Shown: positions 2,790-47,494 of the stretch, piece by piece
Layout of the letters: every line of letters begins with the position of its first letter
How positions within the stretch are numbered: the stretch's first letter is position 1
NCBI GenBank assembly: GCA_037043015.1
Contig: CM073330.1
Location: forward strand, 7,396,012-7,460,011
DNA: 64,000 bases
Direction of reading: 5' to 3'
Source: Bryum argenteum
Taxonomy: Eukaryota; Streptophyta; Bryopsida; Bryales; Bryaceae
Program-made: the position numbers and the translations under genes
Notes under the pieces: model-generated
The model's input: the letters and a program-made list of their open reading frames with translations, nothing else
Told to the model about the DNA's origin: nothing
Databases searched by the model: none

Positions 2790-4885
2790 AACTGGAATCC
2801 GCAATCAATAACCCTTATACATCTTAGATTTTTTGATGTGATTTCTATTTTCCTATTGGTATAGTAGAATTTCTTTGTTTACCAAGGCTTTGATAATTGC
2901 CTTGTAGTAAATAAAGGCAGTTAAAAGTAAAACTGCCGGCATTTGGATAGTGTAGTTGACTATTATGATGTTTTTGGATTTTTATAAAGGACCTAAATTG
3001 GAGGTATAGGCTGATGAAGAGTCACTCTTTTCCCTTAAGTGAAGAGGAAAGAAAGAAGAAAGAAGGAGGAAAAAGAGATTTCCTTCAAGTTTGTGTCAAG
3101 GTGGTGTCTTTGGTGTGTAGAAGGAGGGATTTTTAGAGGTGTGCTGAGGTTGTGTTGGGAGAAAATTTGTGACAAATTAAGTTTGTAATGTTGTTATTTG
3201 TGCAATTACCTTTGTATAGACACCTTTTATGAATGATTTGGACTAGTGAGCAAGAAGTTATGAGAGTTTGAAATTTTTGAGAATTTAAAGAATTTATAAT
3301 TACCCGATTGAGTAGTGAACTTTTCGGGGTTTATAATTCCCAACAACTTTTTTTTCCTCAAATCTTTCAGGGTGTTGTAGTTCTTGAAGCCTTCTATTCA
3401 TAAACACTTTGCACTTATAATTTGAAGCATTTTAGAGAGTTTTATGGTGATTTGAAGAAGGAGAAGTCTGCAGCAGACTTACTCTCAGTCTACATCTTTA
3501 GAGGCCTATAGTTTGTGGACATTAGGTTAGAATGTTTTGACATTTGGAGGAAAATCAGAAGGTGTTGTTAGCTTTCCAAATAGCTATTACACTTGTTCAT
3601 AGAATTTGTGAGTTGTTTGTGAGAGCCATTAGAAGTTGCGGAGCATTTTCTCGGAGTTTCGGACTTGCTTATTCAAAAATTTCCTCTGAGGTGAAAGCAA
3701 AGGTTGAATGTTGGAGATGTAAAGACACCAAGACTTGAAGACCTGAAGGGCCTTTAGGCTCTTATTTGTGTTGTGGCTTGTAGTCCGATTTCCTTCTTGT
3801 TGTTCCCAGCCGGTTTTGGAGGCTAGTTGTATTTCTTTTCTTGCATTGTAAACCCGTTGCAAGCTTTGTGTTTACACTTAGCTTCATGCTGTGTTGTGGC
3901 AACAAAGTACAGTTAACAACCCACATGGTTGATCTTATATGTTGTTTCTGCTCGTGAAGGCGCTGCTTAGTCACCGCAGGTTTGAAGTTTAAAGTCTATC
4001 TTACGAACGGCAGCTCGTATTTGTTGTTCCGTTCTATCCGTCTGAGGACATGTGGTTTCTTATTATCTACCCAACCAAAATCCTTACTTTGTAGAACCAA
4101 CCACAAGATAGGCCAACGAGCACGTGTTTGAAGATTGAAGACTGAAGACAAAAGATTGAAGAACCGAGACAGAAAATTGAAGAATGTTTATCTCACATCC
4201 TCTCACCGAGTTATTCCTAGTTGCAGCCAGACACCTCGTGTGTTCCCAAAGCGAGCTCCTTTGATACACGACAACGCCTACCACCTTAGATGTGACAGCG
4301 GACAGAGTGATATTGCGGATTCGTGAGGTATTAAATTCGGGTGTGTTATTGTTAGAGGGCCGTGATGATAAGTTGTAGAAGGGTCATACGCGCAATTTTG
4401 CACCTTGCCACTTACTACACTTTGATGATACTATACTTCTCGGCATCTCTCACATTTCTGCAGGTTTACAATGTCATTTATTTGGTAATGTCAAGAGGGC
4501 AACCACAATGGTCATTTGTGATTTTAGTTACACGGGGTCGCACTTAAAATGTTTAACTCCGCTTCTCTTAGAGATTGTGAGCCCAAAAACCACTATAGAG
4601 TGGCCTTTAGTCACAAGGAGAAAATAAAAAATGAGGTAAAATGAAGAGAAAAATAAGATACTAGAGGAGACAAGGAGGAGACGAGGTGCAAAGAAGAGAA
4701 GAAGAAGGAAACTGTCCGGCCGGCTCACCTTGGAAGTGACATGTGGTTTTTTGTTTGTCATTCTTTTGTCTTAACTCCGTTTGGGCGTGCCATAGCTTTT
4801 AAAAAGCTAAGTCTGTTGTGCATCTACTCCTAAAATCTCAAAGTCATTGGACCAGTACCTTAGGACTGATTGCAGAATGACTGGG
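2790..4885. other. Intergenic, no gene recognised
   Basis: About 2.1 kb of AT-rich DNA with only short open frames. None of the translated pieces (for example around 3544-3738 or 3762-3974) resembles a known domain. Sequence near 3750-3900 has the T/G-rich look of retroelement terminal repeats, but I could not find a partner copy, so no element is called. Confidence 0.35.
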
Positions 4886-7882: not shown

Positions 7883-8419
7883 TTAAGCTTTAAACGCCCG
7901 AGCATGCCCGAGGGGCATTTTCGAGAACTTTCGAGCACTGTAGCTCCGTAGTCGTCGCACGGAAACGATCATATCGATAGTCAAAGTGGTCAGCGTCCGA
8001 CAATGAATCCGTTTCAATGAATTCCGGGCTCAATTGTGAGGATTGCAATCCAGGAATCTCAAACCGCTAGGTACGGGTCATCAGCAAGGTGGAGTCGGGT
8101 CTGCCCGATTGCTGAAATCTTAGTTTCGCTTCTGTTGAAAGCTGTGTCAAAGCTTTCGATCTTCTATTAGCTGTCTTAGTCTCCAGAACGTTTCGTTTTT
8201 GCGGTTGCACCAACGGCTCCGCGCGATGGTGGCGGACTGGGTACTTCGTCGACGTTTGAGTCATGGTGCTGCTTTTCGAACGGAACTCGAACAGTGGCTA
8301 ATTCTCGCTCAACAACAATCAGAAACGGTAGTGCAACAGTGTCTAACATTGTTTGACGAGGAGAAATTATTATCGCTTTCGTTGCCTCCCAGGGTCGTTC
8401 TACCCAGTATCCATGGGTA

Positions 8420-8865
8420 AAGAATTTTTGGTTTCTTTTTTGAAGACAAGTCGCATCCGTCTTGCACTGGAAGGAGCGGAGAGAAGAAGGGGATACCCAA
8501 GGATTTACGGATAAGCTAAATAGCTTCATCCGGGACGTATGGTGGCCGGACAAAACCGCTGCGACCGTCCACGGCCACAGCCTCGACGATCGCACATTCA
8601 GGTGAGTCACAATTTGCAAATTCGGCAAAAAAAATATTTTAAGGTTTCGGGGCAATTGGCTTACTGTTGCGATGATCTTCTGTAGCGGTTTATTGCCATC
8701 AGGGCGACGAAACCAGAGCTTGCTTATTGCCTACGAGTCAGCAACGATCGGAATTGTCAAAAATCATGTTTCTGAGCCTTGTGATCCAGTACCGACGGTT
8801 TCTCATCAGCGGGAGCATTGCCGCTCATCTACGTCGAAGGAGCCGAAGCAGCCTAGAATGGACCA
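8420..8865 (+). CDS. Possible spliced cargo exons inside the piggyBac element
   Basis: Two open stretches are joined by canonical splice signals in matching phase. The first ends at TTCAG|gtgagt (8600) and encodes a segment like DKLNSFIRDVWWPDKTA. The second begins after ttctgtag near 8685 and continues open to ACCAG|gtaagc (8865). The product is not recognised. GC content is well above the surrounding DNA, which would fit a captured host gene fragment. No start codon or terminal exon was established, so it may equally be non-coding. Confidence 0.22.
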
Positions 8866-9529
8866 GGTAAGCTCCTGCCCTGCCTCCATTTCCGATTTCG
8901 ATGGAATTGGCCCGATTCATCTACCGAACTGTTGCACGGCACTCTGAGCAATGAGCTCCTCGAATACTGCCGAATGCCGCTAATGAACCTGCGACAACAC
9001 ATCACCGTCAGTAACCACTCAAAAGTTGACTTGAACTGCGTGAAACGCACCATGAACATCACAGACTAGGATGTTGTTACTCACTGATAGTATGTTCGTC
9101 GACACTCTACTCAGCACCAGAGCGCCCGTAATCTCAAATACAGCGGCGATCTGTTCGAGGCAGTTGATGTATTTATCATATTCCAATTCGTTCTACAATC
9201 CGGCAGTGCAAATGCTGCCGAATGCTGATTTCAGCTTTGTCTCATCGCTCGCTCGAGCTACCCACTCGAACGAATGGCTGGCAGTTGAATGGTGGCCACC
9301 ATCTAACCGCTCCTTCGGTTGGTTGTAATGGTGCAGGGTGCGAGGAATCGTGGAAACAGAGGAAGGATAGCTCAAAGATCCAGAGGTCGTGGAATTTCAC
9401 CGATCGCCAGTCAATAGCAGCCGATTGTGAATCTTGCACGTAATATAGATCAGAGGTTGGTCCTCACAGTGAGTGATTTTGTTGCAGGGACGGGCAGGTG
9501 TGTAAGGCATCATTTGGAGCTCGGGGAAG

Positions 9530-9770
9530 GAGGCTTGGTGGTCCTTGAACAGTCTATTATCGGACTAAGGCAGGCAGAGGAGACCAGAGGATTGAGGCAA
9601 CCGGAGGAGGCCGTAGAGCTTGGAGAGACCGGAGCGAGGTCATCCCTATTCGATCGGCAACCAGAAGAGGGCGGAGGCCAAGGGGAGATCGGAGCCAAGT
9701 CAGCTGCATACGTTTGGCAGGCAGAGGAGGCCGGAGCCTCAGAGGAGACAGAAGCCAGGCAGCCGTAGGC
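9530..9770 (+). repeat. Degenerate GC-rich minisatellite
   Basis: Purine-rich units built on 'ggca(a/g)(g/c)cagaggaggccggag' recur about three to four times at roughly 55-60 bp spacing. One frame reads as Glu/Gly/Ala-rich repeats (RQAEE, RQPEE, WQAEE), but there is no sign that it is expressed. Confidence 0.5.
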
Positions 9771-9900
9771 TCCAAAACGACAGAGCAGTAAACGTCGCGG
9801 TGGGATAAATGGAGAAAACTCCACATGTACGTCTCTAACCCAACCTTCCCATCATCTTCTAATTTTTGCCAATTTAGATTCTCCCCTTCAGAATCCTAAT

Positions 9901-10653
9901 GTGGTTGAATATGGGATTTTGCAGGCACCCGGTGAAGTTGGAGGAGAAACAGATAAAAATTTTGAGACGCTACAAGATGATAGTAGATGTGTGTTAGATA
10001 GTCATGCCTCAAGTGAATTTGAGCTTTTGTGGTCCAATGTCCATGTACCTCAAAGAAATGTCACTTTGAGAAGTGACTTAAACAAGAATTTGTTTGTTCC
10101 ATTGTTTGATCTTGGATGTTGTGAGACATGTGTGATTGTTCCAAAAATTGAGTTACCGGATTTGCATGTGCCATTAGATTGTGATGCCGCATACTTAGAT
10201 ATGCTTTGGAGCACGGTTGTCAATGAATTTTATGATCCCATGATGGCGGTTGAAATGTTGAGTGTTCTGCTTTTTGGTCCTTGGGGCACATTCAATGTGC
10301 CAGAGGCGGTTTGTAAGTTTGTTGATGAAACTTCCAATTATGGGAGAGTAAATGAGGTCCAATTGTGGGGTTCTAAGCTACAAACCCCTAATCCATCCAA
10401 TGGTAATACTTCCAATTCATCATATGTCCCCGGTCTAAATTCCCCCCAATTCTCAAGTGACATGGATAAGTTGGAAAATCTAGAATTAACCCCTAATTCA
10501 CGTAAGTGGTTCTTGAATTCATCACCCGCAACAAATGAAATTGGGTTAGATTATAATTTTTCTTTTACCGAATTCTCAAAATTACCGGAGCCAAAGCGTT
10601 TTGCCCAAGGCATGTGGAACTCTCCATTGAATAGTCTTCCCCCCGTTGTGTAG
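9901..10653 (+). CDS. Unrecognised 250-codon open frame upstream of the piggyBac transposase
   Basis: This long AT-rich open frame directly precedes the transposase on the same strand. A splice-acceptor-like ttttgcag lies at 9924, so the true coding part may begin there. The protein is acidic, with a Cys pair (GCCETC) and a segment LPDLHVPLDCDAAYLDMLW. It matches no family I know. Its position suggests an N-terminal extension or a second protein of the element. The stop codon sits in the loop of an 11 bp perfect hairpin (10634-10666), and the transposase resumes about 70 bp later in another frame. Confidence 0.4.
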   Translation: MVEYGILQAPGEVGGETDKNFETLQDDSRCVLDSHASSEFELLWSNVHVPQRNVTLRSDLNKNLFVPLFDLGCCETCVIVPKIELPDLHVPLDCDAAYLDMLWSTVVNEFYDPMMAVEMLSVLLFGPWGTFNVPEAVCKFVDETSNYGRVNEVQLWGSKLQTPNPSNGNTSNSSYVPGLNSPQFSSDMDKLENLELTPNSRKWFLNSSPATNEIGLDYNFSFTEFSKLPEPKRFAQGMWNSPLNSLPPVV

Positions 10654-10666
10654 TCGGGGGGAAGAC
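10634..10666. repeat. Perfect 11 bp stem hairpin
   Basis: GTCTTCCCCCC (10634-10644) pairs with GGGGGGAAGAC (10656-10666) around an 11-base loop that contains the TAG ending the upstream open frame. It lies between the two open frames of the piggyBac element. Confidence 0.85.
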
Positions 10667-10721
10667 AAGGGTTGGTAAATTCTTTACCCTTATGTAAAAC
10701 TCCTCTTAATTATTTTTTTTA

Positions 10722-12109
10722 CTTTTTTGGCCTAATGATGTTTTGGTTAGAATTGTAAGGATGACAAATCTTTATGCAACTACAAGCTTAGAGGGAGGGA
10801 AAACAAAGGGAGGACCACATTGGACCCCGCTAATGGTAAAAGAGCTTCTTACCTTTTTTGGCGTCTTGATATACATGGGAACCAAGAAAGTACCTAACAT
10901 AAGATTGCATTGGTCAAAATCGTTTAAGGATTTATTCCAAACGGAGGCAATAACGAATTATATGAAAAAGAATAGATTTGAAGCAATTCTTAGATGTTTA
11001 CATTTGGTAGATAACCGAAATGTAACAACGGATAAAACAAGTCCTAATTACAACAAGTTAGCTAAAACGGAGTGGTTAGTAAAAGATCATAACAGACTTT
11101 GTTCTCTTTTTTACTACCCGGAACAAAATGTATGTGTAGACGAAATGATGATAAAATACACGAGTAAATGCGCACCAATCCGTCAATACATGAAGGCTAA
11201 AACAACACAATACGGGTTAAAAATCTGGTGCCTTGCTGATTGTGAAAGTAAATATGAACAAAAAATAGAAATTTATTGTGGTGCTAGTGAATCTACAGAA
11301 GAGGGCAACGTCGGCGGCCGGGTGGTCCTAAACCTCATGGGGAGTTTAGAAGGTAAGGGGCACATAGTTACTTGCGATAATTTTTTTACCTCACCTACTT
11401 TATTTTGGACTTTGTTCGAACGTGGAATTTTTGCAACCGGGACATGTAGGACTAATCGTATTGGGTGGCCCCAAGCACTTACAAACTTGCCGGCGGCAGG
11501 ATCACGGGGGCAACTTTGGCATTTGGTGCATGCAAGCGAGAGAATGTGTGCGATTACATGGTATGATAATAAACCGGTAAATTTACTTTGTACGGCATGT
11601 AGTCCGGTAGATAGTTCCAAGTCTTTGTTCATTACCCGTTGACATGTAGGTGAATCCCGGTCTCCCCGGTTTTATTACACTACCAAGAGTGGATGAGAGG
11701 GGTAGATGTCCATGACCAATTGAGGGGTCATTATTCTTTGCAAAGGAGAGACCACAAATGGTGGCATAAGATTTTTTTTCACATCTTAGATCAATCGTTT
11801 TTGAATGCATATATTATGTACAAGCAAGCTATGGTGTGGAGAAACTCTAACCCTATGTCATATTTGAGTTTTTATATTAAATGTGCTAACTCATTGACCG
11901 AGGTGCCCGAGCCGAAACTTACATGCATGCCTAGGGCGGCAGTGCCAAATCCCGGCAAAAGACATTACACCATGGCTTGAAAAGACCATGAAGATCGAAA
12001 ACGGCGCCAATGTGTAATTTGCAAGAAGGTAAGGCAATGGTGTTGCCCTACATGCAAATATTGCCGTTTGCCAATGAGAGTGTTATGTAACCCTTCACTC
12101 ATGATTTGA
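10722..12109 (+). pseudogene. piggyBac transposase (DDD type), interrupted
   Basis: The frame reads FWPNDVLVRIVRMTNLYA, then the DDE_Tnp_1_7 fold: GVLIYMGTKKVPNIRLHW, NRFEAILRCLHLVDN, CVDEMMIKYTSKC with the first catalytic Asp near 11139, and IVTCDNFFTSPTLF with the second near 11376. The third Asp is in MRGVDVHDQLRGHYS near 11705, after a frame change around 11641. A stop codon at 11978-11980 precedes a C-terminal cysteine-rich domain (QCVICKKVRQWCCPTCKYC) that ends at 12109, as in other piggyBac proteins. All three acidic residues and the zinc-binding tail are present. I see two coding interruptions, and the N-terminal join to the upstream frame is unclear. An intron at one of these points cannot be ruled out. 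Confidence 0.9.
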
Positions 12110-12561
12110 ATAGTCTCTCTTATTGATGTTCTTATGTTTCTAAAATATGTATATATATTTTGTTTTTTTTCTTATCAATAAAATAACACACATCTCTTAT
12201 TTCATTTTATTTCAAAAGTGTGATATGTATGAATTGTAGATTTTATTGGATACTCGAATGGGCTTTTTTATCATATAACACTAGCATTTTGGTCTTCGCT
12301 GGTCGAGGCCGTTTTCCCGCCGTGTTTCCCTCGGCCGTTCCCGACAATGGCCTTGTGCCCGGGCTCCGTAGCATCCGCCGGGCTCTGTCGCTGCGACCCT
12401 CGCCGGTCCCTACGCGGCCGGCTACAGCACACAATCGCTTGCAGTTTCGAGCACCGTTTTCACGCTCCGCGCCCACCTAGCGAGCCTGCCCGATTCCCGC
12501 ATTACGCTGTTTTGATTCTCCGAACTGCCCCCTTTCCGGCCCAAGGGCGTTTAAGGGTTAA
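12110..12561. other. 3' non-coding end of the piggyBac element
   Basis: An AT-rich stretch is followed by a GC-rich subterminal block (about 12296-12550) and the terminal repeat with TTAA at 12558-12561. GC-rich subterminal DNA also lies just inside the left end. Confidence 0.5.
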
Positions 12562-18114: not shown

Positions 18115-18514
18115 TTAACCCTTAAACGTCTAGCTATACGGTTTTGGGCAGCCCAGTATTGGATCACAACATCTTTTGGACTTGGGCATCATGAATAGTG
18201 CACTTTTTGAACTTGGGCATCATGAATAGTGCACTTTTTGAACTTGGGCATCATGAATGATCCAATCAATGATGAGCTTGCAAACTCCTACAAGTATTGT
18301 ACAACCCCAACCTACCTACCACAATCCTTTCAAAGCACAAAATCACTCATACAAATTGTGATTTGAATTGTGAAATTTCACTTTTTGAATGCATCAGAAG
18401 AAGGTGACCAATTTGACATCAAAATATAAGTGAAAAGTTGAGCACATTGAGAGCTACAGAGAAGATTCTGTTGGAAAAGGACCCCTCGGGTCACCTTAGA
18501 CGTTTAAGGGTTAA
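18115..18514. mobile_element. 400 bp piggyBac-type MITE with TTAA ends
   Basis: It begins TTAACCCTTAAACGTCTA (18115) and ends with the exact reverse complement TTAGACGTTTAAGGGTTAA apart from the last inner base (18514). The outer 12 bases equal the right terminus of the transposase-bearing element at 12561. Internally, a ~35 bp unit (acttgggcatcatgaatagt) is repeated three times at about 18179-18260. It has no coding capacity. Confidence 0.88.
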
Positions 18515-19118: not shown

Positions 19119-19904
19119 TCAGAAGGCTCCGGCAGCCTGCTCCGCGGATGCGAACTGCGAAGCTAACCGGTCCAACTGCCCCTTCACGCTCATGTCGATG
19201 TACCGCGACCCGTCCTTGCCATACTGCACAATGAAGCCTGCAATCAACGATGGGTCCACCACGTTCTTGATCCTCACATTCTTCGCCCCACACAAGCTCT
19301 GGATCTTCTTCGCAATCAGCGCCAACTGCGGCTTCTCGATCTTCACCGCCGACATCACCGTCGCCACCTGCGTGTCCGTCAGCTCGTTGTAGATGGCCTC
19401 GAATTCCGTAATCACGCCCTTGATGAGCTCGATGCGCTTCTTGTCCACCAGCAGGTTCAGAAACGACAGCGTCACGTCGCTGAACTTGGCGTCCTCCGCC
19501 AGCGTCTTCAGAATGCTCTTCTTCTTGTCACCATCGATGACGGGCGACACCAGAAACTCGTACAGCTCGTTGTTGTTGAGCAACTCACCCAACCCCTCGA
19601 TATCCTTGTTGATCTTCTCCAGGTCGTTGTTGGCCTGAGAGAGCTCGGCCAGGGCCGCGGCGTAGCCTGCGGCTGCGGTCTCAGCCTTCATCACCACCAC
19701 GCCCCTGGAGCTCGAAGAGGACGGGGCCGAGACGGACTTGGCTACCTTGGCGACGAGGGCGGCATTGCCCTTGAATGCCGAAGAGCCACTACCGGCGACG
19801 AACCCCATCTTCACCTGCGCCACGCGCGAGTGTGCAACGCGGCCATTGTTGGCGACGGGGGCGACGGCCGCAGCCCGGGTCACAGATTGCTGCAATGCCT
19901 CCAT
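19119..19904 (-). CDS. ATPD: ATP synthase delta subunit, chloroplast
   Basis: This intronless gene encodes 261 residues when started at MEALQQSVTRAAAV (ATG at 19902-19904). The frame is open upstream to 20138, but the added residues do not look like a transit peptide. Residues 1 to about 75 are rich in Ala, Ser, Val and Arg and lack acidic residues, as expected for a chloroplast transit peptide, with the mature protein starting near KAETAAAGYAAALAEL. The rest is the OSCP/delta family: NNDLEKINKDIEGL, LNNNELYEFLVSPV, FLNLLVDKKRIEL, and the C-terminal IKNVVDPSLIAGFIVQYG signature. The subunit joins the CF1 head to the peripheral stalk of the thylakoid ATP synthase. The coding region is much more GC-rich than its flanks. 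Confidence 0.95.
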   Translation of the reverse strand: MEALQQSVTRAAAVAPVANNGRVAHSRVAQVKMGFVAGSGSSAFKGNAALVAKVAKSVSAPSSSSSRGVVVMKAETAAAGYAAALAELSQANNDLEKINKDIEGLGELLNNNELYEFLVSPVIDGDKKKSILKTLAEDAKFSDVTLSFLNLLVDKKRIELIKGVITEFEAIYNELTDTQVATVMSAVKIEKPQLALIAKKIQSLCGAKNVRIKNVVDPSLIAGFIVQYGKDGSRYIDMSVKGQLDRLASQFASAEQAAGAF

Positions 19905-20982
19905 GTCGACGAATTCTCTAAGATGTCCCCGCGTTGGAGCTTGAATCCGCTCTGCAACGAGCTTCTGAATCCGAGAACTCGAAACTCGGGCACAGCAGCT
20001 GCAAAATGGCCAGTGAGAGCGCCCGTCCAACGGACGGAGGCCAGCAAGATAAGGTGGGATAGGGGCGAAAAGCGTTTCTCCCTTCGTTCCAATAAAGCCC
20101 TTGTGGTCGTCGTTCACCTGCCCAGACCGTGTCTTCACTCATTCTCTTTCCCTTTTCCGTTCGCCGTGGATAGTGTGTTGTGAAAGTTGAATGTTCCGCA
20201 TTTTGATCGTTGCAATCTGGAGGGTCGGTATCAAGCCGTGTTTGTCTTCTAGGTTTCTCTGCGAACTTGAAATCCGATCAGTGTTGCGACATTCCCAAGA
20301 TAATTCTTGAGCATCCCGGAAAGAATCAGAGTATCATCCCAGAATGCAACAATTTCTACAAAAAGTAATCAGAAAACGCCATCTTCGATCACTCTAGCAT
20401 CCAAGCACCAATTCGGGTAGTGGTCCTTTCGAGCATTCTTGAGTTGCGAGGCACACCGAAAGTACTTTGACTGATCATGAAGTTCTCTCACATTCTAAGC
20501 ATGGAAGTGTTGATACTCAACAGAATACAGAATACATTCGAAGGGAGAGGCACCTATTCCTCTCAGAATCTGAGATCTGGACCATATAACTTGACTAGTA
20601 ACTGAGTTCCGGCATGCATCTGTGATCATGTTGAAGTCTGCATAATCTTGTTTTAGAGATTTTTGAGGTTCATGAGCTACAGAAACTCATATTTAACTTC
20701 AAATCCACCCAAACTCATCAAGGAAAATGTTGTCGTGTAGGACTTGTTCACTACAACCAAGACTTTCCTGAATGACTCAAGACAACTAATAAAATTATTG
20801 AACCAGTAATGAAAATCATTTTCTACTTGTAGAACGAGTCACTCAGATCATTGGAAGGGCAATCGATACATGAATTACCCACTAGATTTTGCAGACGTTT
20901 TTTTACATGGAGCCTCAATCTGCTGAACTAGTCTAAGAAAAGCATCATGTCGGTGAAAGCAAGCATGGGGGCGGTCGATCGA
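19905..20982. other. Promoter side of ATPD and 3' side of the dehydrogenase gene
   Basis: A pyrimidine-rich stretch near 20140-20165 probably lies near the ATPD transcription start. Nothing coding is recognised between 20200 and 20982. Confidence 0.35.
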
Positions 20983-25552: not shown

Positions 25553-26532
25553 TTAACCCCTAAACGCCCCAGCCTATTTTTAGCAGAAAAGCACATTTCC
25601 ATAGAAATCGTCATAGATGAAAATGAAGAGAAGCTATTAAGATCTCAACCGTACAAACTTGTAATAGACTTATCGAAGATCATGTGGACCAAAATTTGAG
25701 TCATGAGGCCTTATAGATCGGGAGATCATAACATATTAATACTAAAAACAAATTGCAAAATTTCATCATTTTCACTTTGAGGTGGAAATGCTACCAATAT
25801 ACCTATTGCAATGAAAAAATCACCAACTAGAAAGATGTTCACCTTCATCTTAATAAGTCCTTTACCCAACAAAAATTCATCAAAAAAATTTCTTGGCTCA
25901 AATAAAAGCCATGCAATGGTAAAAATTGCCAAAAATTTTACAAAGGAAAATTAGTCCAAAACTAGACCCTCTCCATTCAATTTCATGCCCTATCTTCAAA
26001 ACATCTTCGATCTTGTTAAGGTTTCTACCAATTAGACTAGACTCTAATTGGAGGCCATTCCAAAAAATTAAGTTGAAATCCAACGGTGGATGAAGGAGAT
26101 ATAGCTCCTCAAATATCATCCATTTTCTCACTTTATTTGTTGACAAAACATCATTGCAAATCCAATAGCAAAGTCATTTGGATCAAAAAACTTCTCACTA
26201 CAAAGTTGTTAGGAATCACCTTAAGATCATGACCATGAAAAAAAAATCATGAAAAACTTTTTTTAATTTCACATAATTGGCTTGCAATGGTAATACATGC
26301 CCCATGCTTGGAAACCCAAAAACAAGAGCTGTCTTCACTAAAGTGCATTCCATTAATTCATACTTTATTGTATGGGCTTGCAAATTCTACAACACAAACT
26401 AGACTTGATTTGGAACCTAACCCAAGTGATTTCATCCAAAACGGACCTCGGATGAAGAAGATATGGCTATTCAAAGTTGCTGCCTTCCATCCAAAATGTC
26501 GTTTTTCGACATTCGGCGCGTTTAGGGGTTAA
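25553..26532. mobile_element. 980 bp piggyBac-type non-autonomous element
   Basis: It begins TTAACCCCTAAACGCCCC (25553) and ends CGTTTAGGGGTTAA (26532), so the terminus matches the transposase-bearing copy. Its right half, read in reverse, is collinear with the element at 54805-55419: gaatgtcgaaaaacgacatt, then attttggat, cgttttgga(t/c)gaaatcact, and aaatcaagtctagttt. The two are therefore the same subfamily. No transposase fragment was found inside. Confidence 0.88.
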
Positions 26533-46908: not shown

Positions 46909-47494
46909 TTAACCCCTAAAGATCCAAGAGGACCAAATCGGGCTTTTGCTATTTTGGGCAGCTTAGATGAATAGGTTAAAAGTAATATTTTTGCCTAAAT
47001 TTTTTAATGGGTGCTCCCTATACTGCAAAGTGTATGTGGTAAAATTTACAAAGCCAAATTCCAATTTTTGAGTCTTTTACAACAATTCTTGGTTTGCGAG
47101 CCGAACTGGGGCAGTTTAAATTTAGTATTTTTTTGAGATTTTTTTTTGGAAATATGTTCATGACCAAATCACTATTTAAGTTCCAAAGGGCCCCAAGTCA
47201 AAAAGTGTACCAATTTTACAAGGGCAGCCTCCAAAAGTGTCAAAAATAATCTCAACAATGCCCAAAAAAACTTCGTAGACAAACTTTGGATGTTATAATC
47301 TCTCAAATGGTAAACATCCAACGGTCAATTTTTATATCAGATACTGAAAATTGGCTTAGGTACAAGATCTTACGGTTGGAAGTTAAGAAAAGAATAAAAA
47401 AATTGTTTCGCACCCCTTGAAGTGCATAGAGGTAGAGAATTGGAGTTTTGAGGTTTTAAGCTCCCAAAAACACCCAAGGATCTTTAGGGGTTAA
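46909..47494. mobile_element. 586 bp piggyBac-type MITE
   Basis: The ends are TTAACCCCTAAAGATCC and its exact reverse complement GGATCTTTAGGGGTTAA. Read in reverse, its interior is collinear with the partial element starting at 63265 (tacctctatgcacttc, agattataacatccaaagtt). It forms a subfamily distinct from the copies at 25553 and 54805. Confidence 0.9.

Follow-up and report, generated by a model that had tools for sequence, protein, structure and literature searches.

A decayed piggyBac-superfamily transposon, probably of a lineage resident in a plant genome

We analysed a 64,000-nucleotide stretch of plant DNA (the window) and found that an element of 4,679 bp within it is best read as a decayed autonomous transposon of the piggyBac superfamily that belongs to a lineage resident in this plant, a reading to which we give a probability of approximately 0.93. 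Judged on its sequence, the window copy is a dead relic that has lost the ability to make its enzyme. The wider family forms a long-resident and recently mobile plant piggyBac population; it is present in many copies and several lineages throughout the genome and is therefore a resident population rather than contamination. A first-pass annotation of this DNA had placed the element at 7883-12561 with TTAA ends, and both the coordinates and the TTAA at each edge were verified. Its parts are listed below, where C1, C2 and so on are contigs of the genome and L002 and similar names are transposase loci.

7883-12561, plus strand: whole piggyBac element, 4,679 bp, TTAA at each edge (start base common to four sister copies, end to three)
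7883-7886, no strand: left TTAA target-site copy (TTAA here also in the C4 and C2 sisters)
7887-7899, plus strand: left terminal inverted repeat (first three bases unlike the sisters)
7900-9327, plus strand: 5′ leader without a Pfam-matching frame
9328-12108, plus strand: interrupted coding region of the transposase (homology to L002, an intact relative of 886 aa)
10713-11812, plus strand: DDE_Tnp_1_7 catalytic core, split over two frames (Pfam)
11139-11141, plus strand: first catalytic aspartate, equivalent to Trichoplusia ni (T. ni) D268 (alignment)
11376-11378, plus strand: second catalytic aspartate, equivalent to T. ni D346 (alignment)
11705-11707, plus strand: third catalytic aspartate, equivalent to T. 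ni D447 (alignment)
12011-12055, plus strand: cysteine-rich zinc-binding tail, first half only (remainder frame-shifted)
12545-12557, minus strand: right terminal inverted repeat (end comparison)
12558-12561, no strand: right TTAA target-site copy

A piggyBac-type DDD transposase

The frame 10710-11642 matches the Pfam family DDE_Tnp_1_7 at 1.6e-62, which passes the cut-off, and the match is carried onward by the frame 11654-11980 at 2.2e-7. Sequence matches were also obtained between the window copy and the solved transposases of T. ni piggyBac (5.1e-21) and piggyBat (8.2e-9), and the intact relative L002 (C1:23.34 Mb; 886 aa counted from the conserved first methionine, in an open frame of 897 aa) matched the same two enzymes at 2e-29 and 7.4e-24 respectively. 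Comparison with the T. ni enzyme gave 102 identical residues at 375 aligned positions (27%). The active site of the T. ni enzyme consists of D268, D346 and D447, with D450 also important (PMC7351741, PMC2533014), and these four residues align with D561, D640, D753 and D756 of L002. All three aspartates of the triad are kept in the window copy, at codons 11139, 11376 and 11705, so that the DDD transposase proposed at first pass is borne out. The spacing between the first two aspartates is 79 in the window copy, as in animal clades A and B (PMC10813416), and 91-95 in a second plant lineage (L004, L006 and L054). A related transposase at C4:13.94 Mb (L007) has a glutamate at the position of the second catalytic aspartate and a stop in its frame.

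The plant enzymes share with T. ni piggyBac (PDB 6x67) the DDE_Tnp_1_7 core, the DDD triad and the duplication of a TTAA target, and the intact relatives L002, L006 and L008 also have its cysteine-rich C-terminal domain. They differ from it in length, the T. ni chain having 594 residues compared with 886 in L002, of which about 410 precede the core match, and the T. ni element measuring about 2.5 kb (PMC10813416) compared with 4.7-5.7 kb for the plant elements. Similarly, piggyBat (PDB 9c0f) aligns from the core through the tail with residues 414-884 of L002, although it is remote in sequence and its chain is shorter (578 residues). Intact piggyBac elements of beetles, at 2,074-3,465 bp with enzymes of 500-725 aa (PMC12732532), are also shorter than the plant ones. 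The N-terminal region matched no Pfam family, and a fold predicted from the single sequence was useless (mean predicted local distance difference test score, 32).

Element ends shared with sister copies

The two ends of the window element are inverted with respect to each other, with 21-nt arms that are 86% complementary, and are of the CCCTTAAACGCCC type, the left tip being altered and the right end unaltered. Four sister copies of the same subfamily were found, at C2 6.88 Mb, C2 30.5 Mb, C4 0.64/0.68 Mb and C9 14.72 Mb, in pieces 82-96% identical with the window copy. The element ends are fixed by these sisters because they share them: each of the four begins at base 1 of the element, the C4 and C2 6.88 copies end at base 4679 and the C2 30.5 copy at 4672, with the C9 copy matched only to 4314. 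Short terminal inverted repeats beginning with CCC are present at the right end of the window copy and at either end of the C4 sister, and CCCTT is likewise a common first motif of the ends in animal piggyBac clades A-G. TTAA is duplicated on either side of the window copy and of the C4 sister, the termini of which are CCCTTAAACGCCC, confirming that TTAA-bounded copies exist elsewhere in the genome; the right end of the C2 6.88 sister reads TTGA.

The C4 sister is itself split by about 35.8 kb between L014 (C4:646240) and L011 (C4:682037). A direct repeat of 10 bp, GTTGGAAAAT, borders this insert, which has imperfect inverted ends; neither of its two large edge frames gave a Pfam match. The insert may be one very large element with terminal inverted repeats or a nest of elements.

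A multi-copy, multi-lineage population

The genome searched (G000) comprises 258.8 Mb in 25 contigs. Of 775 first-look candidates for the transposase family, 116 were scored, every one above the Pfam cut-off, and these lie on all 11 large contigs; 93 of the 116 have no internal stop, and 49 also reach an open-frame length of ≥800 aa. With the core of the window copy as protein query, 132 matches were obtained (128 scored of 723 candidates). The terminus TTAACCCTTAAACGCCCNNGG, with at most one mismatch, occurs at 4,550 places (2,260 + 2,290) compared with 0 + 0 for the reversed-pattern control, far above chance. A genome-wide terminus search had been suggested at first pass, and the picture that emerges is stronger than was guessed there; the window copy belongs to a resident multi-copy lineage. 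A second terminus, TTAACCCCTAAAGGCCC, occurs at 2,971 places (1,469 + 1,502; reversed-pattern control again 0 + 0), and its first 100 places include 37 facing neighbour pairs, which measure 268-273 bp (22 pairs), 586-588 bp (two pairs) or 5,700-5,716 bp (13 pairs). A third candidate terminus was sighted once, adjoining L008.

The ratio of non-synonymous to synonymous substitution (dN/dS) was estimated by the Nei-Gojobori method on the core of 12 loci, 10 of them of the window lineage; the core frame is open in every one. Window-lineage pairs with dS >0.9 gave dN/dS values of 0.04-0.09, revealing constraint on the sequence; near-identical pairs gave unsteady and higher values (0.26-0.97), and comparisons with the second lineage were saturated. 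In a tree of 25 rows (the window copy, 22 genome loci and two animal sequences as outgroups) the window copy belongs to a group of 18 rows (100/100) that is distinct from L004/L006/L054 (99/100), L003 and L008.

Several lineages in one genome could also reflect repeated horizontal invasions instead of long vertical residence, an explanation that we hold to be possible without favouring it. It would account for window-lineage sub-groups that stand at dS 0.9-2.7 from one another with close copies inside each, and for deep lineages that are separate in the tree. Against it, the 22 loci and the window copy form a group that leaves out the two animal sequences (96/98), a weak argument given that these are two long-branch outgroups, of little use for the question of origin.

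Contig C1 (44.1 Mb, 17% of the genome) looks poor both in genes and in piggyBac. It holds none of 132 kinase matches, none of 90 light-harvesting matches, five of the 116 transposase matches and, among the matches listed for two short derivatives described below, none of 43 and none of 41. Its share of long terminal repeat (LTR)-integrase matches, 24 of 150, is about proportional to its size, and it is possibly a sex or heterochromatic chromosome. LTR-integrase matches cluster densely on several chromosomes, for example at C1 28.89-29.01, C2 4.46-4.65, C4 27.9-28.1, C5 19.1-19.2, C7 1.33-1.52 and C10 16.69-16.76 Mb, and such clusters could mark centromeres.

Recent movement of relatives and non-autonomous copies

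Four copies of a 5.70-kb element, on C2, C4, C8 and C9, share 99.79-99.88% identity, any two of them showing 0-4 mismatches. The flanking sequence is different at every site, and four duplicated bases border each copy on both sides, TTAA in three copies and ATAA in the fourth. In addition, a 370-bp derivative, the left end of which resembles the 5′ end and the right end the 3′ end of autonomous elements, has 43 listed matches, 40 of them 98-100% identical (matches from the 40 best-scoring of 2,774 candidates). The window contains three further TTAA-bounded elements with ends of the piggyBac type:

18115-18514, no strand: short derivative, 400 bp, with the terminus type of the window element
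25553-26532, no strand: separate element of 980 bp (terminus related)
46909-47494, no strand: separate element of 586 bp (terminus of the second type, two mismatches)

The first of these has 40 further listed matches in the genome at 88-97% identity (the best 40 of 2,851 candidates). As far as sequence comparison goes, these data demonstrate recent mobility for another lineage, that of the 5.70-kb copies, and for short derivatives, and not for the window copy. At C2:1907221-1918618, two of the 5.70-kb elements are arranged head to tail and share the TTAA bases between them.

Several points weigh against our interpretation. The 831-aa frame in three of the 5.70-kb copies stops before the tail, which lies in another frame, and the frame of the C2 copy is split in two; because the tail is out of frame with the core and one frame is broken, the four near-identical copies may themselves have moved in trans. 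The identities quoted for the short derivatives come in each case from the 40 top-scoring candidates, out of 2,774 and 2,851 respectively, and the dN/dS set consists of copies chosen for their open frames, the window copy being left out.

Decay of the coding region

When compared with L002, which retains a single intact open reading frame, the window copy has five premature stops (9415, 9766, 10651, 11640 and 11978), three frame-shifting indels (at about 10711, 11652 and 12056) and in-frame insertions at three places (3, 66 and 60 bases). The first-pass annotation had recognized only two coding interruptions and had placed the coding start at 10722; homology moves the start to near 9328, with the end at about 12108. 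It had also described the zinc-binding tail as kept, which is true of the first half only: the tail is in frame to about 12055, and the last frame shift, within the cysteine-rich region itself, removes the rest. Nor does the recent activity suggested for this copy survive, because its closest copies over the aligned 3′ part are only 94.1% (2,582/2,744) and 94.0% (1,478/1,572) identical; on these values and the eight coding lesions it is rejected. The possibility that the GC-rich 5′ part holds another gene was also considered and rejected, a single minus-strand frame of 184 aa giving a sub-threshold Pfam match only.

An enzyme-dead copy might still be mobile in trans through usable ends, and here the right end and both TTAA copies are intact and related enzymes with open frames exist. 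We consider this unlikely for the window copy, as the first three bases of its left terminus are unlike those of its sisters and no near-identical daughter copy was found, the best others standing at 94%.

A plant host

The frame 19119-20138 of the window has the chloroplast ATP synthase delta chain as its best solved match (1.7e-47) and matches the OSCP family at 1.3e-44. This plant gene, together with the 90 light-harvesting family matches in the genome, substantiates the plant nuclear context assumed at first pass. For one light-harvesting protein the best single-stretch solved matches were 8htu and 7xqp, ahead of the listed seed-plant chains, the top row overall being 9vfj_2, a 620-aa chain matched in two stretches. 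Both 8HTU and 7XQP are structures from Physcomitrium patens (PMC10005731, PMC12589708), and the host is probably a moss.

As the superfamily has been described mostly from animals, with fungi also named (PMC10813416, PMC12732532), contamination of the plant assembly by a single animal or fungal element, or its very recent transfer, has to be considered. We judge this very improbable: transposase matches occur on all 11 large contigs, a plant gene lies in the window, the match with the T. ni enzyme is remote (27%), several lineages with dS >1 are found in one genome, and one scan of viral contigs found no viral relatives of L002. The kept catalytic residues might be thought to indicate a domesticated PGBD-like host gene instead of a transposon, a notion that can be dismissed given eight coding lesions, terminal inverted repeats with TTAA and sister copies elsewhere.

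Discussion

The presence of piggyBac in plants is not new, because PMC4438587 tabulates PiggyBac among the superfamilies in all of the groups that it studied, land plants included, and PMC10813416 names plants among piggyBac sources; the window element is a member of a known superfamily, of which this plant genome holds an unusually rich population. At first pass the superfamily was called seldom described from land plants, for which the element type is already on record (PMC4438587). A search by title and start of abstract in the open literature, most subscription papers being outside its scope, found no bryophyte piggyBac paper. In PMC10619864 the word occurs twice, both times as ‘piggybacking’.

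By analogy with the established mechanism of the T. ni enzyme, a working element of this kind would encode one transposase of about 890 residues, the DDD core of which would cut the transposon ends; the TTAA flap would form a hairpin, and the excised element would join a new TTAA, which would be duplicated. The window copy can no longer produce the enzyme and has become a relic; its relatives worked over a period long and recent enough to account for the near-identical full-length copies and the thousands of matching ends, many of which probably belong to short derivatives moved in trans. A fuller picture, which we regard as having an even chance of being correct, is that of a land plant, probably a moss, with a still-moving piggyBac of several old lineages, whose long transposases carry about 400 additional residues at the N terminus without a match in Pfam, and with thousands of trans-moved short derivatives concentrated on the gene-rich chromosomes.

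PiggyBac is a main tool for footprint-free genome engineering and has been studied mostly in animals. The window copy itself is only a fossil, and its value lies in its relatives: a plant genome with multiple lineages, sequence constraint on the enzyme and near-identical recent insertions offers a natural setting in which to study the life of piggyBac in plants, the spread of its short derivatives and the possible existence of a plant-adapted enzyme. Should the intact copies prove active, they would represent a native plant piggyBac.

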